From: a virus
Direction: 5' to 3' (one strand)
DNA: 64,000 bases
IMG/VR virus record: IMGVR_UViG_3300031857_013798
Span: 62,001-126,000 of that record
Part shown: positions 3,653-30,206 of the stretch, piece after piece
How positions within the stretch are numbered: position 1 is the first letter of the stretch
Layout: each line of letters opens with the position of its first letter
Notes under the pieces: generated by a model
Database searches by the model: none
What the model was told of the DNA's origin: nothing
The model's input: only the letters and a program-made list of their open reading frames with translations
Program-made: the position numbers and the translations under genes

Positions 3653-4123
3653 ATGTGGATTTTACATTTTCTTCCTGATGCCTTGATCTTATGGTTTTGT
3701 AACATCCTGTTATTAGCGGGCCTTGTGCTTACTGTAGCAGGATTTTTTGCGCATCGTATTCCTCTAGTGTGGCAATATCAGTTGCCCTTTAAAGTCCTGG
3801 GCATTGCACTTTTGGTGCTAGGAGTTTACTTTCGCGGCGGATACGCAGTGGAAGCAGAATGGCGCGAGCGTGTGGCTGAAGTGGAACAAAAACTAAAGAT
3901 TGCTGAAGCTGAAAGCGCACGGGAAAATGTAAAGATTGTGGAACGAGTTGTGAAGAAAACTGAATACATCACTCGTAGAGGTCAAGACATCATACAGTAT
4001 ATTGACAGAGAAATAGTCAAGTACGATGTAAAATTTGCACCTGGTGGACAGTGTGAAATTCCTCGAGAATTCATTACCACTATAAATCGTGCAGCGGAGG
4101 CACCAAAAAATGAAACTAAATGA
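3653..4123 (+). CDS. Putative i-spanin (Rz-like) inner-membrane lysis protein
   Basis: 156 residues with two hydrophobic segments (about 9-30 and 46-60) followed by a long charged, coiled-coil-prone region and a C-terminal part with a single Cys. This resembles the inner-membrane subunit of a two-component spanin that links to an outer-membrane lipoprotein to fuse the membranes during lysis. A lipoprotein of Rz1 type and a GH19 endolysin follow at 5503-6422, supporting this. Two N-terminal helices instead of one is atypical, so the assignment is moderate. Confidence 0.5.
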   Translation: MWILHFLPDALILWFCNILLLAGLVLTVAGFFAHRIPLVWQYQLPFKVLGIALLVLGVYFRGGYAVEAEWRERVAEVEQKLKIAEAESARENVKIVERVVKKTEYITRRGQDIIQYIDREIVKYDVKFAPGGQCEIPREFITTINRAAEAPKNETK

Positions 4124-5501
4124 CGTAATACTAGAAGCAGCGTCGCCTGCTCAACAGGCAGCCATTGCTATTGCTAAAAAGAAAAAGGCCGGCATGGTCA
4201 AAGAACAACAGCTTGATGAATTTGCGCCGTTGTTGGCAGCAGGTGCAAGACTGTTCATGGCTGCTGCCCCAAAAATAGCACAGGTTCTTGGCCAAGCAGG
4301 ACAAGCAGGAGCTCGCGGTGCAGGTCAGGCTGCTCGAGCTGGCACAGAAATTGCAGCCAAGAATGCTGGAAAAATTGGCATGGGTGCTGGTGCTTACGAA
4401 ATTGGATCTTCTGTGGCAGACATTGCCAAAGATATTGCTGCCAAGGTGGGCACGGCCATTGACGAGAAAACATTGCTTGACCTGTCTGCTTTGGCTTTTA
4501 AATATGCCATCCCTGCTGGCATTGTGTTGGCTGTGTTGTATGGCGGCAAAAAAGCCATAGACTCCTTGTTTGACGAGCCCAAAGATCAGCAAGGTGTGGC
4601 GGAAGGCAAAGCTGATTACAACTTTGATATTGAGGATCTAAAACGTCTTGAACAAATCAGAGACTTGTCCACGTTGAAAGCACAGGCACTGGCATTGATC
4701 AGCAAGCCCAGTGCCAAGCCAATGAAACCAGAAAAAGTTGAATGGTTTAAAAATGCCCTGGAAAGAATGAACAGCCCTTTAAAAGTAATCAAACTCATGT
4801 ATGATTTGTTGCTGAGTGGCGAAGGTAATGCTGTAGTTGGTTCTAGATCGTCAATGAATCCCAACAGTTATCGTCAGCGATTTAGTGAGCAAGGTGTAGC
4901 GGAAGACTACAATGGCGAGTATGACGACGAAGCAGGCATGGCCGACAACAACTTAGAAACGCTACAACGTGCTGTAGAAGGTATTGACGATCTAATTCAA
5001 TCAGGTGATAACTTGCCTGAATGGTGTCAAGAAAAGATTGCTGTGGCCAAGTCAATGCTGGTTGCTGTGTGGGACTATATGTATTCAGAGGAAGCGTCAG
5101 ACGAAGTGGATCCCGAAGTGGATGAAATGTTTGAAGCCATGCAAGAGTTGGTAGCAGAAATGGCTGTGAAAAATCGTGTGAGCGAAGATCTAGTGTGGGA
5201 ACAGTTTGAAGCCATGCCGGACAATGTGCTGTATGAAACAGCCGCCTGGCGACGTAAAGAAGGCAAGAGCAAAAAAGGCGGATTAAACGCCAAAGGTGTG
5301 GCATCATATCGTAGAGAAAATCCTGGATCAAAATTGCAAATGGCCGTGACCACCAAGCCTTCAAAACTAAAGAAAGGCTCTAAGGCAGCAAAAAGACGCA
5401 AATCATTCTGCGCCAGAATGTCAGGCGTTAAAGGCCCAATGAAAAAACCCAACGGCAAACCCACACGCAAGGCTCTAGCATTGAGAAAATGGAACTGCTG
5501 A
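4110..5501 (+). CDS. Putative packaged virion protein with capsid-targeting-like N-terminus and DUF6321-like C-terminus
   Basis: 463 residues from ATG 4110, chosen because GGAGG lies at 4095-4099. The N-terminus MKLNDVILEA matches the style of T4 capsid-targeting peptides, cleaved after L-x-E. An EQQLDEF motif follows, then an Ala/Gly-rich amphipathic stretch and a hydrophobic helix (about 130-150). Two GVAEG/GVAED motifs (about residues 161 and 261) separate segments. The C-terminal 80 residues are basic and Cys-containing (AWRRKEGK, KSFCARMSG, KALALRKWNC), as in DUF6321. It sits inside the lysis cassette. Function unknown; a DNA-binding internal head protein is a reasonable guess. Confidence 0.6.
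   Translation: MKLNDVILEAASPAQQAAIAIAKKKKAGMVKEQQLDEFAPLLAAGARLFMAAAPKIAQVLGQAGQAGARGAGQAARAGTEIAAKNAGKIGMGAGAYEIGSSVADIAKDIAAKVGTAIDEKTLLDLSALAFKYAIPAGIVLAVLYGGKKAIDSLFDEPKDQQGVAEGKADYNFDIEDLKRLEQIRDLSTLKAQALALISKPSAKPMKPEKVEWFKNALERMNSPLKVIKLMYDLLLSGEGNAVVGSRSSMNPNSYRQRFSEQGVAEDYNGEYDDEAGMADNNLETLQRAVEGIDDLIQSGDNLPEWCQEKIAVAKSMLVAVWDYMYSEEASDEVDPEVDEMFEAMQELVAEMAVKNRVSEDLVWEQFEAMPDNVLYETAAWRRKEGKSKKGGLNAKGVASYRRENPGSKLQMAVTTKPSKLKKGSKAAKRRKSFCARMSGVKGPMKKPNGKPTRKALALRKWNC
4587..4907 (+). repeat. Two copies of the QGVAEG-coding motif
   Basis: The nucleotide core CAAGGTGTRGCGGAAG occurs at 4590-4605 and 4890-4905, both in frame as QGVAE, within the 4110-5501 gene. The spacer codes for about 95 unrelated residues. 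The same core recurs near 22-23 kb. Confidence 0.75.
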
Positions 5502-15652: not shown

Positions 15653-16369
15653 ATGAGCACTGTAGTAATCATGCCCGGGGGATTTCATCCTTTCCATGCA
15701 GGGCACCTAGCACTTTATCAATCCGCACAACGGGCATTCCCTGATGCTGAAGTTTTTGTTGCGGCCACAAACGATACCTCAGCTAGACCATTTCCATTTG
15801 CAGTAAAAGAAAAGTTGGCCAAGCTGGCTGGAGTAGATGCTGGACATTTTGTGCAGGTCAAATCACCGTTTCGTGCTGAAGAAATTACTGCGCAATTTAA
15901 CCCTGCTACAGACACATTAATTTTTGTGCGTTCTGATAAAGACGCCAACAAACCTCCACAAGCAGGCGGCATAAAGAAAGATGGCAATCCTGCATACTTG
16001 CAACCACTGATAGGTGCAAAGCGATTAGAGCCATTTGCAAAACATGCCTACATGGCCTACCTACCCACAGTGGAGTTTGGTCCAGGCATGACGTCGGCCA
16101 CAGAGATTCGTGGCGCATGGCCCACACTAAACGAAAAACGCAAAACAGCTCTTGTGATGAGCTTGTATCCAGCAACACAAAAGAATCCCAAATTGGCTGC
16201 TAATGTTGTCAAACTGTTGGACACTGCCATTGGTACTGTGGCTGAGAATCAAGGCTGGGCCGCGACATTTACCAGCGAGAATCAACTGAGTGTGGGTGGC
16301 ATGAAGGCAGGCTATCAAGCTAGAGAAAATCAGCCCGTTATTGACTACATGGAAGAGTCTAGGTCGTAA
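15653..16369 (+). CDS. HxGH nucleotidyltransferase (cytidylyltransferase/NMNAT-like)
   Basis: 238 residues. The N-terminus has MPGGFHPFHAGH, the ATP/CTP-binding HIGH-superfamily signature, and a late S-A-T-E-I-R motif near residue 147, as in NMN adenylyltransferases and glycerol-3-phosphate cytidylyltransferases. The C-terminal 70 residues (GTVAENQGWAATFTSENQLSVGG) are extra and end with ENQPVIDYMEES. Its substrate is unknown. It is one of three HIGH-type transferases in the window. Confidence 0.7.
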   Translation: MSTVVIMPGGFHPFHAGHLALYQSAQRAFPDAEVFVAATNDTSARPFPFAVKEKLAKLAGVDAGHFVQVKSPFRAEEITAQFNPATDTLIFVRSDKDANKPPQAGGIKKDGNPAYLQPLIGAKRLEPFAKHAYMAYLPTVEFGPGMTSATEIRGAWPTLNEKRKTALVMSLYPATQKNPKLAANVVKLLDTAIGTVAENQGWAATFTSENQLSVGGMKAGYQARENQPVIDYMEESRS

Positions 16370-17303: not shown

Positions 17304-20300
17304 ATGAACATCAACGAACTGGATTCCTTCAAGCTGAGTGATGCTGTAAAGTTTCACAATCGTCTCAACCCTAAAATCTGGGGCAGGGACGAGCAATTGT
17401 TACCCGAAGTACGCGAAAAGCTGTTGGCCATTGCTGACAATTTTCGCGAATTTCTTGGCGTAGGTGACCTTGACGTCCGTGACATAACCATCTCAGGCAG
17501 TAATGCTGCCTACAGCTATACCCCATATTCCGACATTGATCTACACCTTGTGGTGGAGTTTCCTGCTGACGACGAAGTTTATCAGGAACTGTTCAATGCC
17601 AAAAAATACCAATATAACGATGAACACAAGTTGAGCATCGGCGGCGTGCCTGTGGAACTGTATGTGCAAAATGCAGCCGAGTCTCCTGTGAGTCAAGGTG
17701 AGTATTCTATCCCACGTGACGAATGGATTCAAGTGCCACGCAGAAAACGTGCCAGAATTGACGACACCTGTGTGCGAGCCAAGGTCGAAGATTTGGATGC
17801 TAGAATACATTCAGCAATTGAATCTGGCAACGCTGAATCCATGAGCAGACTGTGGGACAAGATCAAGGCCATGCGCCAAAGTGGCTTGGATGCTCACGGC
17901 GAGTTTGGGTGTGAAAACATTGTGTTCAAAATCCTGCGTAACAAAGGTTGCATCAAGGATTTGCGCACAGCTAGAACAGCCGCACAAGATCACGAGCTGA
18001 GTCTACAAGAACGCCGAAAAAAGAAATCCCGAGTGCGTTATGGATTTGGCAGCTATTGGTCTCCTGGATTTGGCTACGGAGGAGAATCAGGCGAAGGTGG
18101 TGACGGTGGTGGTGGCGAAAGCATGCGCGAAGGCCATCAAGGACAACCCTACAGTTCAGAAGATGGTGTTGCTGCCAGCACACAAATGTTCTTGAATGAA
18201 GATGACACTGAGAGCATGGTGCAACAGTTTATTCAAGACACTGCTGAACGCTTGGGCATTGAACGCATGCCTGAAATTGTACTACATGACAATGACGGAT
18301 GGAGTGAACAAAATCGTTCATTTGGCATGTACCAACCAGAGCTGCATGTTTTGCATGTGAATCTGCGCGATCGACATGTGATGGATATTCTTCGCACTGT
18401 GGCACACGAACTGGCACACTGCCGCCAACAGGAATTAGAACAATTGGATCACACATCTGGCAACACAGGCTCTCCTGTGGAGAACGAAGCAAACGCTGTG
18501 GCTGGCATTATCATGCGAGACTTTGCTGATGCACACCCAGAACTGTTTGACCATGAAGACATTCGTGAGTCATCTGGATACATTCCCACCTGGGCCGAAC
18601 GCAACGATCCTCGATTTGAAATGGCACTGAGTGTGGATGTGCATCCAGGACAAACTGGCACAGAAGCCAACAAGATGCGACTGGCCACTGATTCGCAAGG
18701 CCATCCACAACTGTTGCGAGCAGATGGCAAGGTAAAGTTAGCAGAAAGTCTAGCACAAGAATTTGAACTGTTTGAAGAACAAGACCTGTTTGAAATAAAC
18801 ATGGGCAGCAAAAATTTGCGCAGGGAAGCTGCCAAAACAGGTGCCATTGCTGGCATGGAATTTGAAATGATTGTGCCTGGTATGGAATCCGAAGATCCTG
18901 AAATGGAACCAGACTATGATCAGGATGAACGCTGTGTTAGCATTGATGATGCTGTGCGATTCTTTCATGATGGCGACTACAACGGCCGTAGAGATGTTGA
19001 ACGCCTGCGTGAAAGAATGCAGGACGATTTCCAGGAATGGCTGGATGAAAAACTTCGCGATGACTGGGGCGGTGAAAGCCAAGATTACATTCGTGACTGG
19101 CTTCGGAATAATGTAAATGAAGATGAATGGAATCCTAACGAGTTAACTGGTGATGAACGAAACGAAGCATTTGATGAATTTGCAGCCAATGTAGACGCTG
19201 ATCCTTCGAGTACTTACTACAATGAAGCCTTTGATGAATGGCGGGAAGAATTCCAAGAAAATTATGACGAAAGCGACTGGTTAGACGCCACAGACCTTGA
19301 CAGAATGAGTGAGGTTGAGCAAATGTATGGAATGAATTGGCCCTACTGGACTAGCATGAACAGCGGCGAGATTGACGCAGATCAAGTGGCTGACGAATTC
19401 AGTCAGGCTGTGGGTCGTGAAGTGCGAGTGAACACAAGATATCATCAGTCCGGCGACAGACCTGGACCCAACAATCAATTCTATGTAGTAGAACCAGACG
19501 CCAGTTTGGAAGGCGACAATGACGGCGACGAAGGCTTGGAGTTTGTGAGCCCGCCCATGCCCATAGATGAACTGCTGAAAGATTTAAATGCCGTGAAGGC
19601 CTGGGCTGGACGCATGGGCGTTTATACCAACAGTTCGACTGGCCTGCACATCAACATATCAGTGCCTGACTACAGTTTAGATCGTTTGGACTATGTAAAA
19701 CTGGCCTTGCTGTTGGGCGACGAGTATGTGCTCAAACAATTTGGTCGCAGTTCCAATACCTACACCAAATCAGCACTAGGCAAGGTGCGTGATCGTGTGC
19801 GGTCCAACCCCGAAGACGCACAGCGTTTGCTGGACAAGATGAAAGGTCAAATGGGTGAACTGGCTTCCAAGGCCATCCATTCAGGCAGCACAGACAAGTA
19901 CACATCAATCAACACCAAGAGCGGACACATTGAATTCCGTTCGCCGGGTGGTGACTGGCTGGATGACAACTTTGACAAGATTGAAAACACTCTGTTGCGT
20001 TTCACAGTGGCCATGAGTGCAGCACTTAACCCTGAAGCCTATCGAGAAGAGTATCAAAAGAAACTATACAAACTGTTGACTCAGGATCAAAAAGGGTCAG
20101 ACACAATCCGATACTTTGCTGACTATGTGGCTGGCAAGATTCCCAAGGCTGCCTTGCGTAGTTTTGTCAAGCAAGCACAACTACAACGCAAGACGGAGCG
20201 TAATAAAACAAGCGGTGAAAAGATGTGGTGGAACGTTTCCAATCCTGGCAATAGTTATGCCAGTGTAGAAGTTGTTGCCACCTCTCGAGAAGAAGCCATT

Positions 20301-21473
20301 GAAAAAGCCTTGGGGGATGATGGCTATCCGTCTTGGGCCAACACACGACAATCTATTGTGGCTGAACCTGTGCGTCCGTATAATTTGGATGCACAATCTA
20401 CACAAGACGACGACACAGCTAGTGCCTTTACTGCACCGCCAGGTTCTCAAGGTGGTGGCCGCCCCAATGACCCCAACGGTCGCTATGCCATTGTGCTACG
20501 CTCGGATCCAGGCCTGTATGGCAGTTTTACTGGCCCAGCACCTGACTATCAGTTTAGATTTAACATGGGCAATCCAGCGGAACAGGCACAAGGCAGATAT
20601 GTTCTCCAAGCCTGGGCTGCTAGAAACAATGTGGTTGCTGCTGACTACATGGTGGTGGATACTGAACAATGGGATCGGCCTGCAGATGCAGCATCGGGTG
20701 GTATCATTGACATTGAACCAGATATAGAGGTGGTCTACCCTGGAAGCACAGCAGCCTTGGCACAACAGCGAGCCACGCCAGGCACATTCTCTGGTGCATG
20801 GAAGGTGTTGGTCAATGGTGAAGAAGTTCATAGATTTTCAGGCGTGGGCAACAATCAAGGCGATGCTAACCGTGTAGCGGCTCAATGGTTGCGAAACAAT
20901 GGTCGGGGAGTGTCAGGCGAAGGCTTTGAAGTTGTGCCAATCATGACAGAAGGTGTAGCCGAAGGCAAGGATCGCTACGGAAACTTTGATCCTCCTGGTC
21001 CTGAAAGCCGACCCACAATGCCAGCGGGCACTGTGCGAGTGGATGTGTCAGACATGTATGACTGGTACAAGTTGGGCAAGAACATTGCTAACTTAGACAG
21101 AGATAACACTGACGATTTTGGCAAAGGACCACCCAGTACTATTGTGAGTTTTGGCGACGAAGATCTTGAACATGAATACATCAAGCAGTTGGAAAAACTA
21201 GGGTTAACCACCACTGACATTGATCCTGTAGATCCCAATCAACCTGCTGGCATCAAGCGTCAAAAAACTGATCCCACATACAACGTAGGTGAAAACTTTG
21301 CTGACGGTCGGAATCCCCAAGACAAAGGCGATTCAAAGCGACACGGCGTGCCCACCAAAGCATCAGTAAGCACCCTGCGTAAAGTGGCCAAACAAGGCGG
21401 TCGCAAAGGACAATTGGCACACTGGATGGCCAACATGAAGGCTGGACGGGCTCGAGCCAAACGCAATAAATAA
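17304..21473 (+). CDS. 1389-residue multidomain protein: nucleotidyltransferase, HExxH peptidase-like, amidoligase
   Basis: Domains in order: residues about 1-240 a Pol-beta-type nucleotidyltransferase (GSNAAYSYTPYSDIDLH near 64-80, metal-binding SDxD); 295-420 a zinc-peptidase-like segment with HELAH at 368-372 and ENEANAVAG after it; 515-900 an amidoligase-like domain (GMEFEMIV, EGLEFVSPPM near 743, TGLHINISV near 780, HIEFRSPGGDW near 876); 900-1210 a linker-rich region with two weak repeats; EGVAEG near 1215; then a small domain and a very basic C-terminus (GQLAHWMANMKAGRARAKRNK). It may be a packaged multi-enzyme precursor. The roles are inferred from motifs only. Confidence 0.7.
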   Translation: MNINELDSFKLSDAVKFHNRLNPKIWGRDEQLLPEVREKLLAIADNFREFLGVGDLDVRDITISGSNAAYSYTPYSDIDLHLVVEFPADDEVYQELFNAKKYQYNDEHKLSIGGVPVELYVQNAAESPVSQGEYSIPRDEWIQVPRRKRARIDDTCVRAKVEDLDARIHSAIESGNAESMSRLWDKIKAMRQSGLDAHGEFGCENIVFKILRNKGCIKDLRTARTAAQDHELSLQERRKKKSRVRYGFGSYWSPGFGYGGESGEGGDGGGGESMREGHQGQPYSSEDGVAASTQMFLNEDDTESMVQQFIQDTAERLGIERMPEIVLHDNDGWSEQNRSFGMYQPELHVLHVNLRDRHVMDILRTVAHELAHCRQQELEQLDHTSGNTGSPVENEANAVAGIIMRDFADAHPELFDHEDIRESSGYIPTWAERNDPRFEMALSVDVHPGQTGTEANKMRLATDSQGHPQLLRADGKVKLAESLAQEFELFEEQDLFEINMGSKNLRREAAKTGAIAGMEFEMIVPGMESEDPEMEPDYDQDERCVSIDDAVRFFHDGDYNGRRDVERLRERMQDDFQEWLDEKLRDDWGGESQDYIRDWLRNNVNEDEWNPNELTGDERNEAFDEFAANVDADPSSTYYNEAFDEWREEFQENYDESDWLDATDLDRMSEVEQMYGMNWPYWTSMNSGEIDADQVADEFSQAVGREVRVNTRYHQSGDRPGPNNQFYVVEPDASLEGDNDGDEGLEFVSPPMPIDELLKDLNAVKAWAGRMGVYTNSSTGLHINISVPDYSLDRLDYVKLALLLGDEYVLKQFGRSSNTYTKSALGKVRDRVRSNPEDAQRLLDKMKGQMGELASKAIHSGSTDKYTSINTKSGHIEFRSPGGDWLDDNFDKIENTLLRFTVAMSAALNPEAYREEYQKKLYKLLTQDQKGSDTIRYFADYVAGKIPKAALRSFVKQAQLQRKTERNKTSGEKMWWNVSNPGNSYASVEVVATSREEAIEKALGDDGYPSWANTRQSIVAEPVRPYNLDAQSTQDDDTASAFTAPPGSQGGGRPNDPNGRYAIVLRSDPGLYGSFTGPAPDYQFRFNMGNPAEQAQGRYVLQAWAARNNVVAADYMVVDTEQWDRPADAASGGIIDIEPDIEVVYPGSTAALAQQRATPGTFSGAWKVLVNGEEVHRFSGVGNNQGDANRVAAQWLRNNGRGVSGEGFEVVPIMTEGVAEGKDRYGNFDPPGPESRPTMPAGTVRVDVSDMYDWYKLGKNIANLDRDNTDDFGKGPPSTIVSFGDEDLEHEYIKQLEKLGLTTTDIDPVDPNQPAGIKRQKTDPTYNVGENFADGRNPQDKGDSKRHGVPTKASVSTLRKVAKQGGRKGQLAHWMANMKAGRARAKRNK
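20946..20969 (+). repeat. One GVAEG-coding motif near the C-terminus of the 1389-residue protein
   Basis: It reads EGVAEGK in frame. The DNA core differs from the other copies (GTAGCCGAAGG), so the protein motif is kept while codons vary. Confidence 0.7.
21466..21472 (+). promoter_or_regulatory. Late-promoter-like ATAAATA
   Basis: ATAAATA overlaps the stop of the large gene; its last A is 8 nt before ATG 21480. Confidence 0.4.
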
Positions 21474-21479
21474 CCCATC

Positions 21480-21833
21480 ATGAGATATAAAGAAATTCTT
21501 GAAGCCTGCTGGACTGGTTATCGCCAAGCAGGCATGAAAAACAAAGGTGGTCGTCAGGTGCCCAATTGTGTGCCTGTGAGCGAAACCGAGTTGGAAGAAA
21601 ATCTCCGTGATTGGTTCAAAGACAAGTGGGTACGCTTTGGGCCCGACGGCAAGATCCGTGGTGATTGTGCTAGAGGCAGTTCAAAAGAAGGCAAGCCCAA
21701 GTGTTTGCCGCAAGCCAAAGCACATGCCCTGGGCAAAAAAGGTCGTGCGTCAGCAGCCGCAAGAAAACGCAGACAAGATCCCAACCCCAACCGCACAGGA
21801 AAGGCCATCAACGTGGCCACTAAAAAGAAATGA
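21480..21833 (+). CDS. Capsid-targeting-like N-terminus plus DUF5872-like basic protein
   Basis: 117 residues. The N-terminus MRYKEILEA matches the T4 internal-protein targeting pattern (cleavage after I-L-E). The body combines a short Cys segment (ACWTGYRQAGMKNKG, PNCVPV) with a DUF5872-like domain: KWVRFGPDGKIRGDCARG, GKPKCLPQAKAHALGKKGR. It is very basic (Lys/Arg about 25%), suggesting DNA binding inside the head. The stop overlaps the next ATG by 4 nt. Confidence 0.65.
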   Translation: MRYKEILEACWTGYRQAGMKNKGGRQVPNCVPVSETELEENLRDWFKDKWVRFGPDGKIRGDCARGSSKEGKPKCLPQAKAHALGKKGRASAAARKRRQDPNPNRTGKAINVATKKK

Positions 21834-23665
21834 TTATAGACGACTTATTTGAAGCCTCACAGTCATGCCCACACTGTGGTGGTCCCATGTTCAGTGAAAT
21901 GCTGATGATGGAAAAGAAAGACGCCTGCTACTACAAAGTAAAAGCGTCAGCAAAAGTATGGCCATCAGCCTATGCATCTGGACGCTTGGTTCAGTGTCGC
22001 AAAAAAGGCGCTGGCAATTATGGCAACAAGTCTGAAGGTGTGATGGAAATGGACAAATCACAAACACCTCCAGGGCGTGATGGTAGTAACGATGAAGGCG
22101 GCAAAAAAGAATACACTGCTAAAGCAACCACTGCTAAAAAAGTAGCCAAGGATGCTGAAAAGATTCTAAACAAAGAGTTAAACAAGAAGCAAGGTGTGGC
22201 GGAAGCAACTGGCGATCAAAAGTTTGACTCAATGATGGGTCAGATCACAGGTGGTGCTACTGCTAGGCAAAGTGTAGATAGTTTGAATAAGTCTCTCACT
22301 GCAAGAACAGGCAGCGACCCAGAAACAGCATTGGCCAAATGGGGCCAGGAATTTATAAATTGGCTTGAAAAAATTTGCCGCAACTTTGAAAGGCAAGGTG
22401 TAGATAGGTTTAATAAATTAGAAAAAGTAGGTAATCTTGACGACGGTGGCGAAACTATGGCGCACTGGTTGATTGAGGTCGCCAAACAATCCAATACCTC
22501 AGGCATTACACAGGCTGACATACAGGAATTTTCTAGCGAGTTTAATACCCACGGAATGTGGGCTTGGCATCAGTTTCCTATAGCTTGGGGTCTAAAAGAA
22601 TGGCAAGACTATAAAGATCAATGGACTGGCCCTGATGGTTACATAGCCAATCTAGGACAAGGCATGGCGGAAGGCTCGGAGTCAGATGCTTACGGTAACA
22701 CTGGTGAAAAGCATGAATGTGGTTCTTGCGATGGCACTGGAATAGATACACACGATGATGAGTGCCCAGAATGCGGTGGCAAAGGCTGGGTGAGAAATAA
22801 GGAAGCATTGAAGAAGAAAGGCATGGCGGAAGAGTATGAACTAGCAGGTGTTGGCGTAGCATACGAACTGGGTCGTCGAGCATACAAACAAGGTATGACC
22901 ATCAGAGACAATCCATATAGTGCCACAAGAGAAGCCCGTAAAAATGACGAATGGGCCAAAGGATTAGAACGCGGCAAACACGATGCAAATGATGCCAGAC
23001 ATTTCCGCAGTAGTGTAAGAGAACAAGGTGTAGCGGAAGGTGATCTTGACGAAGGCTGGAAAGAAAAATTAGGTGGCGCGGCATTGGCAGGTGCAATGGC
23101 ACTGGGCGCAGGTGGTGCCAATGCTAGAGTTACTCCTGATGGCCAAGGCGGTTTCACTGGCGGATTCAAGCCAAGTGCAACAATGACATCACCTGCTGAT
23201 AATAAACCGGCTGCAGAAGCACCAAAAGGCTTTAGCAAAGAATATTTACAAAGTGTAATAGACGGCAAGCACCCAAGACCAATGGTTAGTGTTGAAAAAG
23301 CAAAAGAACTATTAAAGAACATGCAAGAAGGTGACTTGAATGAAAAGTCAACCAGCCAAGCACAATTCCGCACCATGGCAGCAGCCGCACACAATCCTGA
23401 ATTTGCAAAAAAAGTTGGCATCAGCCAAGACGTTGCTCAAGAGTTCCACGGTGCTGATCGCAAGCAGGACTATGCAGACTTGCCTAAAAAGGCTGACGAA
23501 AGCAAATCAACTCCCAAAGAAAAAGAAGCCGACTACGGTGATGATTATCAAGACATGATTGCTAGAGTAAAGAAACTGGCTGGCTTGGGCCCACTTAAAA
23601 CTGTGTATGATCCCCAAAAGCGTGTGTATCGCAACATGCCCACAGCGGTGCAACCTAAAAAATGA
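21830..23665 (+). CDS. Multi-segment virion-cargo-like protein with DnaJ-type zinc finger
   Basis: 611 residues. N-terminus MIIDDLFEA (targeting-like), then a Cys/aromatic domain (CPHCGG, KKDACYYKVKASAKVWPSAYASG) in residues 12-68, Lys-rich linkers, a helical domain (about 130-270), a double CxxCxGxG zinc finger (CGSCDGTG, CPECGGKG, about 297-322), a short domain (345-395), an Ala/Gly-rich hydrophobic stretch (about 410-430) and a final Lys-rich part. Segments are divided by GVAE/GMAE motifs near 121, 278, 331 and 401. It looks like a chain of small modules. Function unknown. Confidence 0.6.
   Translation: MIIDDLFEASQSCPHCGGPMFSEMLMMEKKDACYYKVKASAKVWPSAYASGRLVQCRKKGAGNYGNKSEGVMEMDKSQTPPGRDGSNDEGGKKEYTAKATTAKKVAKDAEKILNKELNKKQGVAEATGDQKFDSMMGQITGGATARQSVDSLNKSLTARTGSDPETALAKWGQEFINWLEKICRNFERQGVDRFNKLEKVGNLDDGGETMAHWLIEVAKQSNTSGITQADIQEFSSEFNTHGMWAWHQFPIAWGLKEWQDYKDQWTGPDGYIANLGQGMAEGSESDAYGNTGEKHECGSCDGTGIDTHDDECPECGGKGWVRNKEALKKKGMAEEYELAGVGVAYELGRRAYKQGMTIRDNPYSATREARKNDEWAKGLERGKHDANDARHFRSSVREQGVAEGDLDEGWKEKLGGAALAGAMALGAGGANARVTPDGQGGFTGGFKPSATMTSPADNKPAAEAPKGFSKEYLQSVIDGKHPRPMVSVEKAKELLKNMQEGDLNEKSTSQAQFRTMAAAAHNPEFAKKVGISQDVAQEFHGADRKQDYADLPKKADESKSTPKEKEADYGDDYQDMIARVKKLAGLGPLKTVYDPQKRVYRNMPTAVQPKK
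22187..23040 (+). repeat. Four in-frame GVAE/GMAE motifs
   Basis: Copies lie at about 22190-22205 (QGVAEA), 22658-22672 (QGMAEG), 22818-22831 (KGMAEE) and 23024-23039 (QGVAEG). The first and last share the core CAAGGTGTRGCGGAAG with the copies near 4.6 and 4.9 kb. Spacing is irregular (about 470, 160 and 205 nt). Confidence 0.75.
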
Positions 23666-24018
23666 GAGCATACGAGTTTGCACAGTTGAAAGAAGGCGCT
23701 GTAGAAGATTTGGAAAAAGATCTAGATGATCCCAAGAGCTACAGCGCAATTGATCACATGATGCAAACCATTGCTCGTGACTACGGCATTACTGGCAAAC
23801 AACTGCACGACGAGTTTGTGAAAAAACACGGCACAATTCCAGACAAGTGGACCCGCGAGCAACTGCGTGAATTAAGTTTTCTAGGTTCACAATGCACCAA
23901 AGACTGTTCTGGTCACAGAGCAGGATATGCCTGGAGTCAAAAGCGCGGTGGCCGACAACCTGCAAGTTGGAGCGACAGTTTCAATCGCGGTGCCGCACTG
24001 TTTGCAGCAGGAAAATAA
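23662..24018 (+). CDS. Small virion-cargo-like protein with targeting-like start
   Basis: 118 residues. MRAYEFAQLKEGA resembles a capsid-targeting peptide (possible cut after L-K-E). The rest is a small domain with SQCTKDCSGHRAGYAWSQKRGG, likely a Cys/His metal or DNA-binding motif, and a C-terminal SFNRGAALFAAGK. I recall this domain in large T4-like phages without assigned function. It overlaps the preceding gene by 4 nt. Confidence 0.6.
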   Translation: MRAYEFAQLKEGAVEDLEKDLDDPKSYSAIDHMMQTIARDYGITGKQLHDEFVKKHGTIPDKWTREQLRELSFLGSQCTKDCSGHRAGYAWSQKRGGRQPASWSDSFNRGAALFAAGK

Positions 24019-29591: not shown

Positions 29592-29803
29592 TGAAAATTC
29601 AAGAAATCATGGAAAATGCGTCAGTGGGCGGCACCAGTGCTGGTAGTATAGCACCTGTGAGCCAGGCCTTAGGCATGGTGTCAAGATCAGGCGGATCCTT
29701 GTTGAGTGGTAAATATACAACTGATCCTACGCCTAACACGCCCAAGGAATACAAAAGGAATAAGAATGTTAGCGGACGCTTTAAAAACACTCCTGGCAAC
29801 TGA
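29591..29803 (+). CDS. Short protein with capsid-targeting-like N-terminus
   Basis: 70 residues: MKIQEIMENASVGG start (compare the T4 style M-K-x-x-x-E-[FI]-x-E-A), then a Gly/Ser-rich segment and a basic, disordered tail (PKEYKRNKNVSGRFKN). Probably carried in the head. Overlaps the Dps-like gene by 38 nt. Confidence 0.55.
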   Translation: MKIQEIMENASVGGTSAGSIAPVSQALGMVSRSGGSLLSGKYTTDPTPNTPKEYKRNKNVSGRFKNTPGN

Positions 29804-30206
29804 GGAGGCTTTTGCTCTCAAAGCCAAACAGTTCCACTGGAACGTTGAAGGCCCAGACTTTGGCCAGCTTCACGCTTTCTTTGACGCAATCCATGACGAT
29901 GTTTATGGTGCTACAGATCCCACAGCAGAATACATACGTGCCCTGGGCGACTATGCTCCTGGTAGTTTTGAACGATTTGTAGAATTAACAAAAATACAGG
30001 GCCAAACAAAAATTCCACGTGCCCGACTCATGCTAGAAGAACTCTTGGCCAACAACGGCCAAATGTTGGATCTTCTCAATCAAGTCTTCCAAGTAGCAAC
30101 TGAAGAAAACCAACAAGGTATTGCTAACTTCATTGCTGAACGCATCGATGCTCATCAAAAGCATGGCTGGATGCTGAGAAGTTACCTGAAAGAAGAAAGA
30201 GCATGA
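29766..30206 (+). CDS. Dps-like ferritin
   Basis: 146 residues from ATG 29766, SD AAAGGA. The Dps signature is visible: KAKQFHWNVEGPDFGQLHAFFDAIHDDVY, with His and Asp ferroxidase ligands, and later a helical bundle ending EERIDAHQKHGWMLRSYL-like. Dps proteins bind iron and protect DNA from oxidation. The context of head-cargo-like genes suggests it might be packaged or made for progeny DNA protection. It overlaps the next gene by 4 nt. Confidence 0.85.
   Translation: MLADALKTLLATEEAFALKAKQFHWNVEGPDFGQLHAFFDAIHDDVYGATDPTAEYIRALGDYAPGSFERFVELTKIQGQTKIPRARLMLEELLANNGQMLDLLNQVFQVATEENQQGIANFIAERIDAHQKHGWMLRSYLKEERA

Follow-up and report, generated by a model that had tools for sequence, protein, structure and literature searches.

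A putative head-cargo polyprotein joining a nucleotidyltransferase, a metallopeptidase and an amidoligase in a T4-like jumbo phage

The window analysed here is a stretch of 64,000 nt, bases 62001-126000 of the 286-kb IMG/VR record IMGVR_UViG_3300031857_013798 (G000), a large freshwater bacterial virus. It contains an open reading frame (ORF) of 1389 codons (17304-21473; features are given in window positions and lie on the forward strand) that starts with ATG and has zero internal stops. As an initial annotation of the window proposed, the frame joins a nucleotidyltransferase (NTase), an HExxH peptidase and an amidoligase in one 1389-residue chain. The protein recurs at 100% identity in seven further contigs, and a search of related genomes for the same fusion recovers diverged versions, frame intact, in more than 20 non-identical IMG/VR contigs. 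Neither faulty assembly nor chance therefore explains the frame, and a multi-domain gene peculiar to one phage is ruled out. G000 encodes a T4-type gp21 prohead protease (240840-241298 of the record; PF03420, E 1.6e-24) and a gp23 capsid protein (profile match E 5.6e-98), which mark it as a T4-like jumbo phage.

The NTase module occupies residues 1-236 (17304-18011). Its motif, G65-S66...S76-D77-I-D79 with a third acid at E118, is kept at G65, S66, D77, D79 and E118 in 31 of 31 relatives, and these GS...DxD...E residues together with the fold place it in the Pol-beta superfamily. Pfam NTP_transf_2 matches 22 of 39 rows, the fusion's own match falling just below the cut-off, and the fold matches in the PDB (AadA, ANT, CdnE and MNT) have weak E-values (best 2e-3) but are consistent. 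An RlaP-type RNA-repair NTase was considered and rejected, as no RlaP family appears among the Pfam matches of the 39 members at E 0.01.

The HExxH metallopeptidase module (residues 299-416; 18198-18551) carries HELAH at 368-372 (18405-18419) and a downstream glutamate, E393 (18480-18482), as third ligand. H368-E-L-A-H372 and E393 are kept in 32 of 32 relatives, and the fold matches IrrE (3dti) and jannalysin (4jix) at probability 0.97, with E-values that are weak but consistent. The HExxH motif, the downstream Glu and the zincin fold assign the module to the M78/IrrE-like class; its Pfam M78 match is below the cut-off (E 0.07). The peptidase also occurs as a standalone gene in S-SRM01 and in the relatives L042, L055 and L058.

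The amidoligase module (residues 491-998; 18774-20297) opens on an invariant L-x-E↓INM (residues 495-497; the arrow marks a candidate cut) and matches Pfam Amidoligase_2 above the cut-off (PF12224; E 3e-8, 34.1 bits against 22). Invariant positions number 42 in 25 sequences and include GxExE, GxHxxxS (with the GxH histidine) and ExR..GG. The best PDB fold matches of its model, at a predicted local distance difference test score (pLDDT) of 75, are glutamine synthetases (probability 0.87-0.92, E 0.012), so the ATP-grasp label given in the initial annotation was wrong. The module thus resembles the Amidoligase_2 family in its Pfam match, its GxExE, GxHxxxS and ExR motifs and its glutamine-synthetase-like fold, and differs in being carried within a phage polyprotein. 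A standalone amidoligase homologue of Agrobacterium phage Atu_ph07 (AUZ94978; L072:11620-13122; start MRWQDISSKKLTE) lies near the portal gene, probably within a cluster of virion-protein genes.

An AlphaFold model of residues 1-432 (mean pLDDT 83) contains two confident domains, with disorder at 1-6, 246-297 and 417-432. Structure prediction of the segments thus gives the separate globular domains that the initial annotation expected, linked by disordered joints, and no loss of metal or ATP residues was seen in homologues: these are invariant in 25-32 relatives. By residues and models, the three domains look like intact enzymes.

The joint between NTase and peptidase (residues 246-297; 18039-18194; pLDDT below 50) is rich in Gly and Ser and carries SMRE↓G, which reads GVAE↓G in L033; FLNE↓D follows at residue 299. 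Five further modules had been overlooked by the earlier reading. A small module beginning GYIPTWAERNDPRFEMALSVDV (residues 422-476; 18567-18731), preceded by IRE↓SSGYIP, has hidden Markov model (HMM) matches in 42 ORF segments. Beyond the amidoligase lie the small module R1 (residues 1035-1085; 20406-20558), which begins EVVATSREEAIEKA, the small repeated module R2 (residues 1103-1220; 20610-20963), which ends in the seam EGVAE↓G (20949-20963), the mobile insert INS (residues 1233-1328; 21000-21287) and a highly conserved basic tail of 60 residues (1330-1389; 21291-21470) at NVGE↓NFADG.

HMMs built for eight segments trace these modules across other phages. In L042, L055, L057 and L058 the same pieces appear as individual genes within one locus, and fusions of varied size, up to 2560 aa, occur elsewhere. 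INS is near the C-terminus here and follows the peptidase in L020, L022, L025, L027 and L039. The tail frequently sits on the following gene in relatives; it comes straight after MRANEFVTE↓ in L018 and straight after QG[VM]AE↓ in L019 and L062. In phages whose NTases are 37-51% identical, the tail remains 95-96% identical in amino acids at about 76% in nucleotides, which points to strong selection on the protein; recent DNA transfer is rejected for the distant phages, where amino acid identity stays at 95% while nucleotide identity falls to about 76%. No match to the tail was found in isolated phages. A 3235-aa ORF of L056 (L056:9419-19126) carries the amidoligase four times over, together with the tail module and an NTase-like start of the HIGH type. 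The comparison supports a locus that appears to evolve by module addition, swap and fusion at conserved in-frame seams.

The joints are rich in gp21-type motifs. In T4, gp21 cleaves after L/I-X-E (PMC9026906). In a set of 16 relatives, thinned according to NTase identity, the joints hold 83 [LI]xE motifs where shuffling of each joint predicts 40 (z 7.7), and the motif is depleted within modules (99 against 122 expected), whereas the control [LIVM]xD is at its expectation in joints (52 against 50, z 0.3); relatedness inflates the z-scores despite the thinning, but leaves the contrast with the controls unaffected. The motif is also abundant in the scaffold gp22 of G000 (18 against 6.8 expected) and in its gp23 leader (4 against 1), as expected if the G000 protease retains T4 specificity. 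Candidate sites in the fusion are INE↓L, MRE↓G, LNE↓D, IRE↓S, LAE↓S, LFE↓I, VAE↓P, VAE↓G and VGE↓N.

The first of these sites belongs to a putative capsid-targeting and cleavage N-terminus, MNINE↓L (17304-17318), at low pLDDT over residues 1-6, for which relatives have MHITE↓L, MNIHE↓L or MNILE↓L. It resembles, in shorter form, the MELITE↓L of T4 Alt, which is cleaved at ITE-6 and LTE-619 (PMC5694885). In the T4 internal protein IPIII, which starts MKTYQEFIAE↓A in the T4 record, the first ten residues are enough for packaging (PMC9026906). Unfused module genes and their neighbours begin with MRAQEFITE, MRANEFVTE, MKVTELLME and similar peptides (MRAQEF[IVL]xE), here called capsid-targeting-sequence (CTS)-like starts. 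Module genes of L042 start MKITEIISE, MKVTELLME and MFIKDFTE, and such starts are likewise found in L055, L058 and cyanophages, among them S-CRM01 and S-SRM01 on genes of the corresponding loci. CTS-like starts in G000 include those of the window genes at 21480, 23662 and 4110, and two genes at 285 kb of the record begin MRAQEFIAE and MRAREFITE.

With gene starts called by simple rules, the CTS-start pattern fits 64 of 84 module genes (76%), 139 of 1050 other locus genes (13%), 13 of 364 G000 genes and 3 of 84 shuffled starts (4%), a contrast that is partly circular and to be read as descriptive, since the pattern was drawn up after viewing examples. When P3 is left free (M[RK]x(1,2)[EDQ][FLI]xxE), it is I, V or L in 71 of 75 cases, and valine at P3 matches isoleucine or leucine in frequency in the CTS set. 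Arrays of small genes in L026 (13590-19749) and L030 (19081-23791), many with starts such as MRAREFLRE, MKSHEFITE and MRSQEFVTE, resemble a cassette of cargo genes of the T4 IP kind whose bodies differ.

Evidence from virions comes from Synechococcus phage S-CREM2, whose tabulated proteome, obtained by mass spectrometry of purified virions, lists ORF156 (126012-126725) with 6 unique peptides (PMC10665884 Table 3). Its product, gp156, is a homologue of the window NTase (34% identity, E 4e-43). The same source places gp155, the cytidylyltransferase gp154 and gp160 in S-CREM2 virions (PMC10665884). The gp160 motif KKDACYHKVK...NWGNKS is 78% identical over 41 aa to the window protein encoded from 21830, and gp160 also matches the one encoded from 21480. 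An HIGH-family cytidylyltransferase-like protein (15653-16369; Pfam CTP_transf_like above cut-off) is encoded two genes upstream of the fusion; BLAST of this protein against gp154 gave no match. Going by the published list, [LI]xE occurs within residues 4-21 of 9 of 13 non-structural virion proteins against 23 of 166 undetected proteins (Fisher p 2.8e-5), and of 5 of 37 structural proteins; this rule came a priori from the literature, so that the test is not circular. A stricter CTS pattern, itself shaped on similar examples, separates the same two sets as 6 of 13 against 5 of 166. The main text on the S-CREM1 and S-SCSM1 proteomes has no NTase entry. The Cas9-like nuclease listed for S-CREM2 virions, gp12 (L099:7704-10313), has FASFMAE↓A near its start, a CTS-like peptide behind a short extension.

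The observed architecture, intact active sites, motif pattern, gp21 gene and module shuffling suggest that this T4-like jumbo phage makes the 1389-aa protein as a polyprotein of head cargo, a reading to which we give a probability of about 0.7. Within it, packaging of the fusion in the virion is likely, and cutting at its joints is plausible. A peptide of T4 CTS or Alt type would bring the chain into the prohead core, where the phage's own gp21-type protease would cut after Glu at I/L/V-x-E in the disordered joints and free the NTase, the metallopeptidase, the amidoligase, the small modules and the basic tail. The mature enzymes would then accompany the DNA into the host before phage gene expression, a step for which virion presence is documented in the homologue only, and the cargo might there modify host molecules or neutralise early defences. 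This last step is speculative: the NTase might place a nucleotide on RNA, on a toxin or on some small molecule, while amide-bond formation by the amidoligase and cleavage of a host regulator by the peptidase might follow the same aim. Fold neighbours of the NTase include MNT antitoxins, which AMPylate HEPN toxins, and aminoglycoside adenylyltransferases; IrrE-like peptidases cleave repressors. T4 internal proteins, once injected, inhibit type IV restriction enzymes (PMC12373910), and IPIII does its work in the cytoplasm (PMC9391042). Early anti-defence or host takeover is therefore a natural first guess for what this cargo does. The initial annotation had likewise proposed packaging and injection in the manner of Alt: this draws support from gp21 in the genome, the CTS starts of unfused module genes, the joint motifs and the homologue listed for S-CREM2 virions. 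Host proteins as the targets, also proposed there, are a conjecture.

Several observations weigh against the polyprotein reading. The virion homologue gp156 is a single-domain NTase and not a fusion, and the S-CREM2 authors state that such proteins might co-purify with virions (PMC10665884). No isolated phage covering 80% of the fusion protein was found, and all known instances of the fusion are in uncultivated contigs. Its start, MNINEL, is less canonical than the MRAQEF-type starts of neighbouring genes, and three relatives (L019, L026 and L030) have Asp in place of the Glu (MNFHDL). The contrast in CTS-start counts is partly circular. Valine at P3, as in the QGVAE seam, is not enriched in gp22 (4 against 3.7 expected), and cutting at GVAE is therefore less certain than at the L/I sites. 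The T4 late promoter TATAAATA is uninformative: the window has 2 matches, equalled by 45 of 100 shuffles and none near the ORF, and the genome has 8 against 19 for the reversed control.

Three other accounts have to be weighed. The chain might be packaged and injected uncut, acting in the host as a multi-step enzyme, for example one in which the NTase activates a substrate, the amidoligase joins it and the peptidase trims. The order NTase-peptidase-amidoligase is retained in about 20 diverged relatives with every active site intact, as such a machine would have it; yet other phages encode the modules as individual genes, which makes fusion dispensable, INS sits between peptidase and amidoligase in several relatives, and the joints are enriched, and the modules depleted, in gp21-type motifs. 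This account is improbable, and the earlier idea of joint action by the three enzymes as a single fused machine is not supported, the evidence favouring separation by the prohead protease.

It is also unlikely that the protein is an ordinary early or middle intracellular enzyme, never packaged, whose start resembles a CTS because small genes of a hypervariable region share their ancestry. The locus does lie amid replication and metabolic genes (ClpA, DnaJ, DNA polymerase B) and not beside gp20-gp23 at 240 kb, but the homologous S-CREM2 locus, flanked by late sigma factor and primase genes, nevertheless has products listed in virions; the predictive value of [LI]xE for the S-CREM2 virion cargo so listed also tells against this account, which leaves the joint motif enrichment unexplained. 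A core or scaffold component, packaged mainly for head assembly, with enzyme domains active during assembly and fragments largely degraded, would fit the many L/I-x-E cuts made in scaffolds of T4 phages (PMC9026906) and the motif-rich gp22 of G000. Motifs depleted in modules and strictly kept catalytic residues are unlike a chain destined for degradation, and make this very improbable.

Directly downstream of the fusion are a 117-aa basic protein, MRYKEILE↓ACWTGYRQAGMK... (21480-21833), similar to the listed S-CREM2 virion protein gp160; a 611-aa modular protein, MIIDDLFE↓ASQ... (21830-23665), with a KKDACYYKVK...GNKS module and four QG[VM]AE-type seams; and a 118-aa protein with a CTS-like N-terminus, MRAYEFAQLKE↓GAV... 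(23662-24018). Further upstream, a 463-aa modular protein, MKLNDVILE↓AAS... (4110-5501), has two seams and a C-terminal DUF6321.

These seams are alike in DNA. The 16-nt CAAGGTGTRGCGGAAG encodes QGVAE↓G and recurs at module joints across many phages. The 463-aa protein carries CAAGGTGTGGCGGAAG (4590-4605) and CAAGGTGTAGCGGAAG (4890-4905), and the 611-aa protein carries CAAGGTGTGGCGGAAG (22190-22205), CAAGGCATGGCGGAAG (QGMAE↓G; 22658-22673), AAAGGCATGGCGGAAG (one mismatch; 22817-22832) and CAAGGTGTAGCGGAAG (23024-23039). Over the 286 kb, CAAGGYRTRGCGGAAG with at most one mismatch occurs 6 times on the forward strand, 0 times on the reverse strand and 0 times in the reversed control. QG[VM]AE sites in relatives' loci use the Ala codon GCG in 62 of 76 cases, against 7% of Ala codons there; flanks are not conserved past a couple of bases, and a relaxed seam pattern falls in the QGVAE frame at 75 of 75 sites. 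A DNA-only IMG/VR scan for the 16-mer found it in at least 120 stretches; in the 80 loci inspected, the longest open frame reads QGVAE at all 117 exact sites (117/117), and none of the loci has it on both strands. In-frame sites with a retained rare GCG indicate a conserved coding seam, seemingly reusable, under constraint or copying at the DNA level. The seam may be a recombination seam, a protease site or a translational pause site. That CAAGGTGTRGCGGAAG is at once a DNA recombination seam and a prohead-protease site, within a plug-in cargo system of many T4-like phages of natural waters, is our speculative preference among these, though we hold it to be somewhat doubtful; if true, one gene would gather an interchangeable enzyme payload in a single targeted polyprotein.

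Other features were noted in passing. A segment of the 611-aa protein (22859-22984; aa 344-385) has a weak match to ribosome modulation factor, RMF (E 0.005, below cut-off), and is possibly a packaged ribosome-binding module. A Ferritin/Dps-like protein (29706-30206; PF00210, E 1e-23) has low-complexity ORFs just downstream. Elsewhere in the record, a 643-aa basic modular ORF (G000:C1:282716-284647; L089/L090) with an AT-hook-like GRGRPAG and repeated D(V)DGDGDKKEP lies near the CTS-like genes at 285 kb, and a 1199-aa ORF (G000:C1:165291-168890; L084) holds many repeats of DPPYIYVFGNQW...VPGATERKYMD.

Head cargo of other phages offers partial parallels. T4 IPI, IPII, IPIII and Alt share the gp21-type protease and the character of variable accessory cargo; their short N-terminal peptide ending in I/L-x-E has clear counterparts on the unfused module genes and neighbours and a putative, shorter one on the fusion. 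Alt is an enzyme that is injected and has a cut at each end (PMC5694885). Each T4 cargo protein is a chain of its own with a single function, whereas the fusion unites three enzymes and several small modules in a chain that has many motifs in its interior; no sequence similarity of the fusion to the IPs or Alt was seen. Virion enzymes listed for T4-like cyanophages (S-CREM2 gp154-gp160, kinase gp14 and S-adenosylmethionine hydrolase gp6; the S-CRM01 kinase; PMC10665884) include the NTase homologue, with the same basic motifs adjacent and CTS-like starts such as MKNFSSFLTE↓A. They differ in being separate genes with no polyprotein, and the amidoligase and basic tail module are not seen among those listed; no CTS link for the S-CREM2 virion enzymes was seen in that source (PMC10665884). 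The ejection proteins of phiKZ and SPN3US are likewise many cargo proteins cut after Glu by a prohead protease during head maturation, but the motif is S/A-X-E or A-X-E, and each is one cargo protein with a long propeptide rather than a chain of enzymes.

To our knowledge, proteins injected besides DNA by T4-like phages are known for only a handful (Alt and IPI-III). A signature of start peptide and joints that predicts virion cargo, checked here on one published proteome, would offer a means of cataloguing injected enzymes in environmental phages. The seam, conserved in DNA down to a rare codon, would be a concrete subject for the study of in-frame module recombination in phages. The multi-enzyme chain would show a changeable payload loaded through one targeting signal, as animal viruses use polyproteins.

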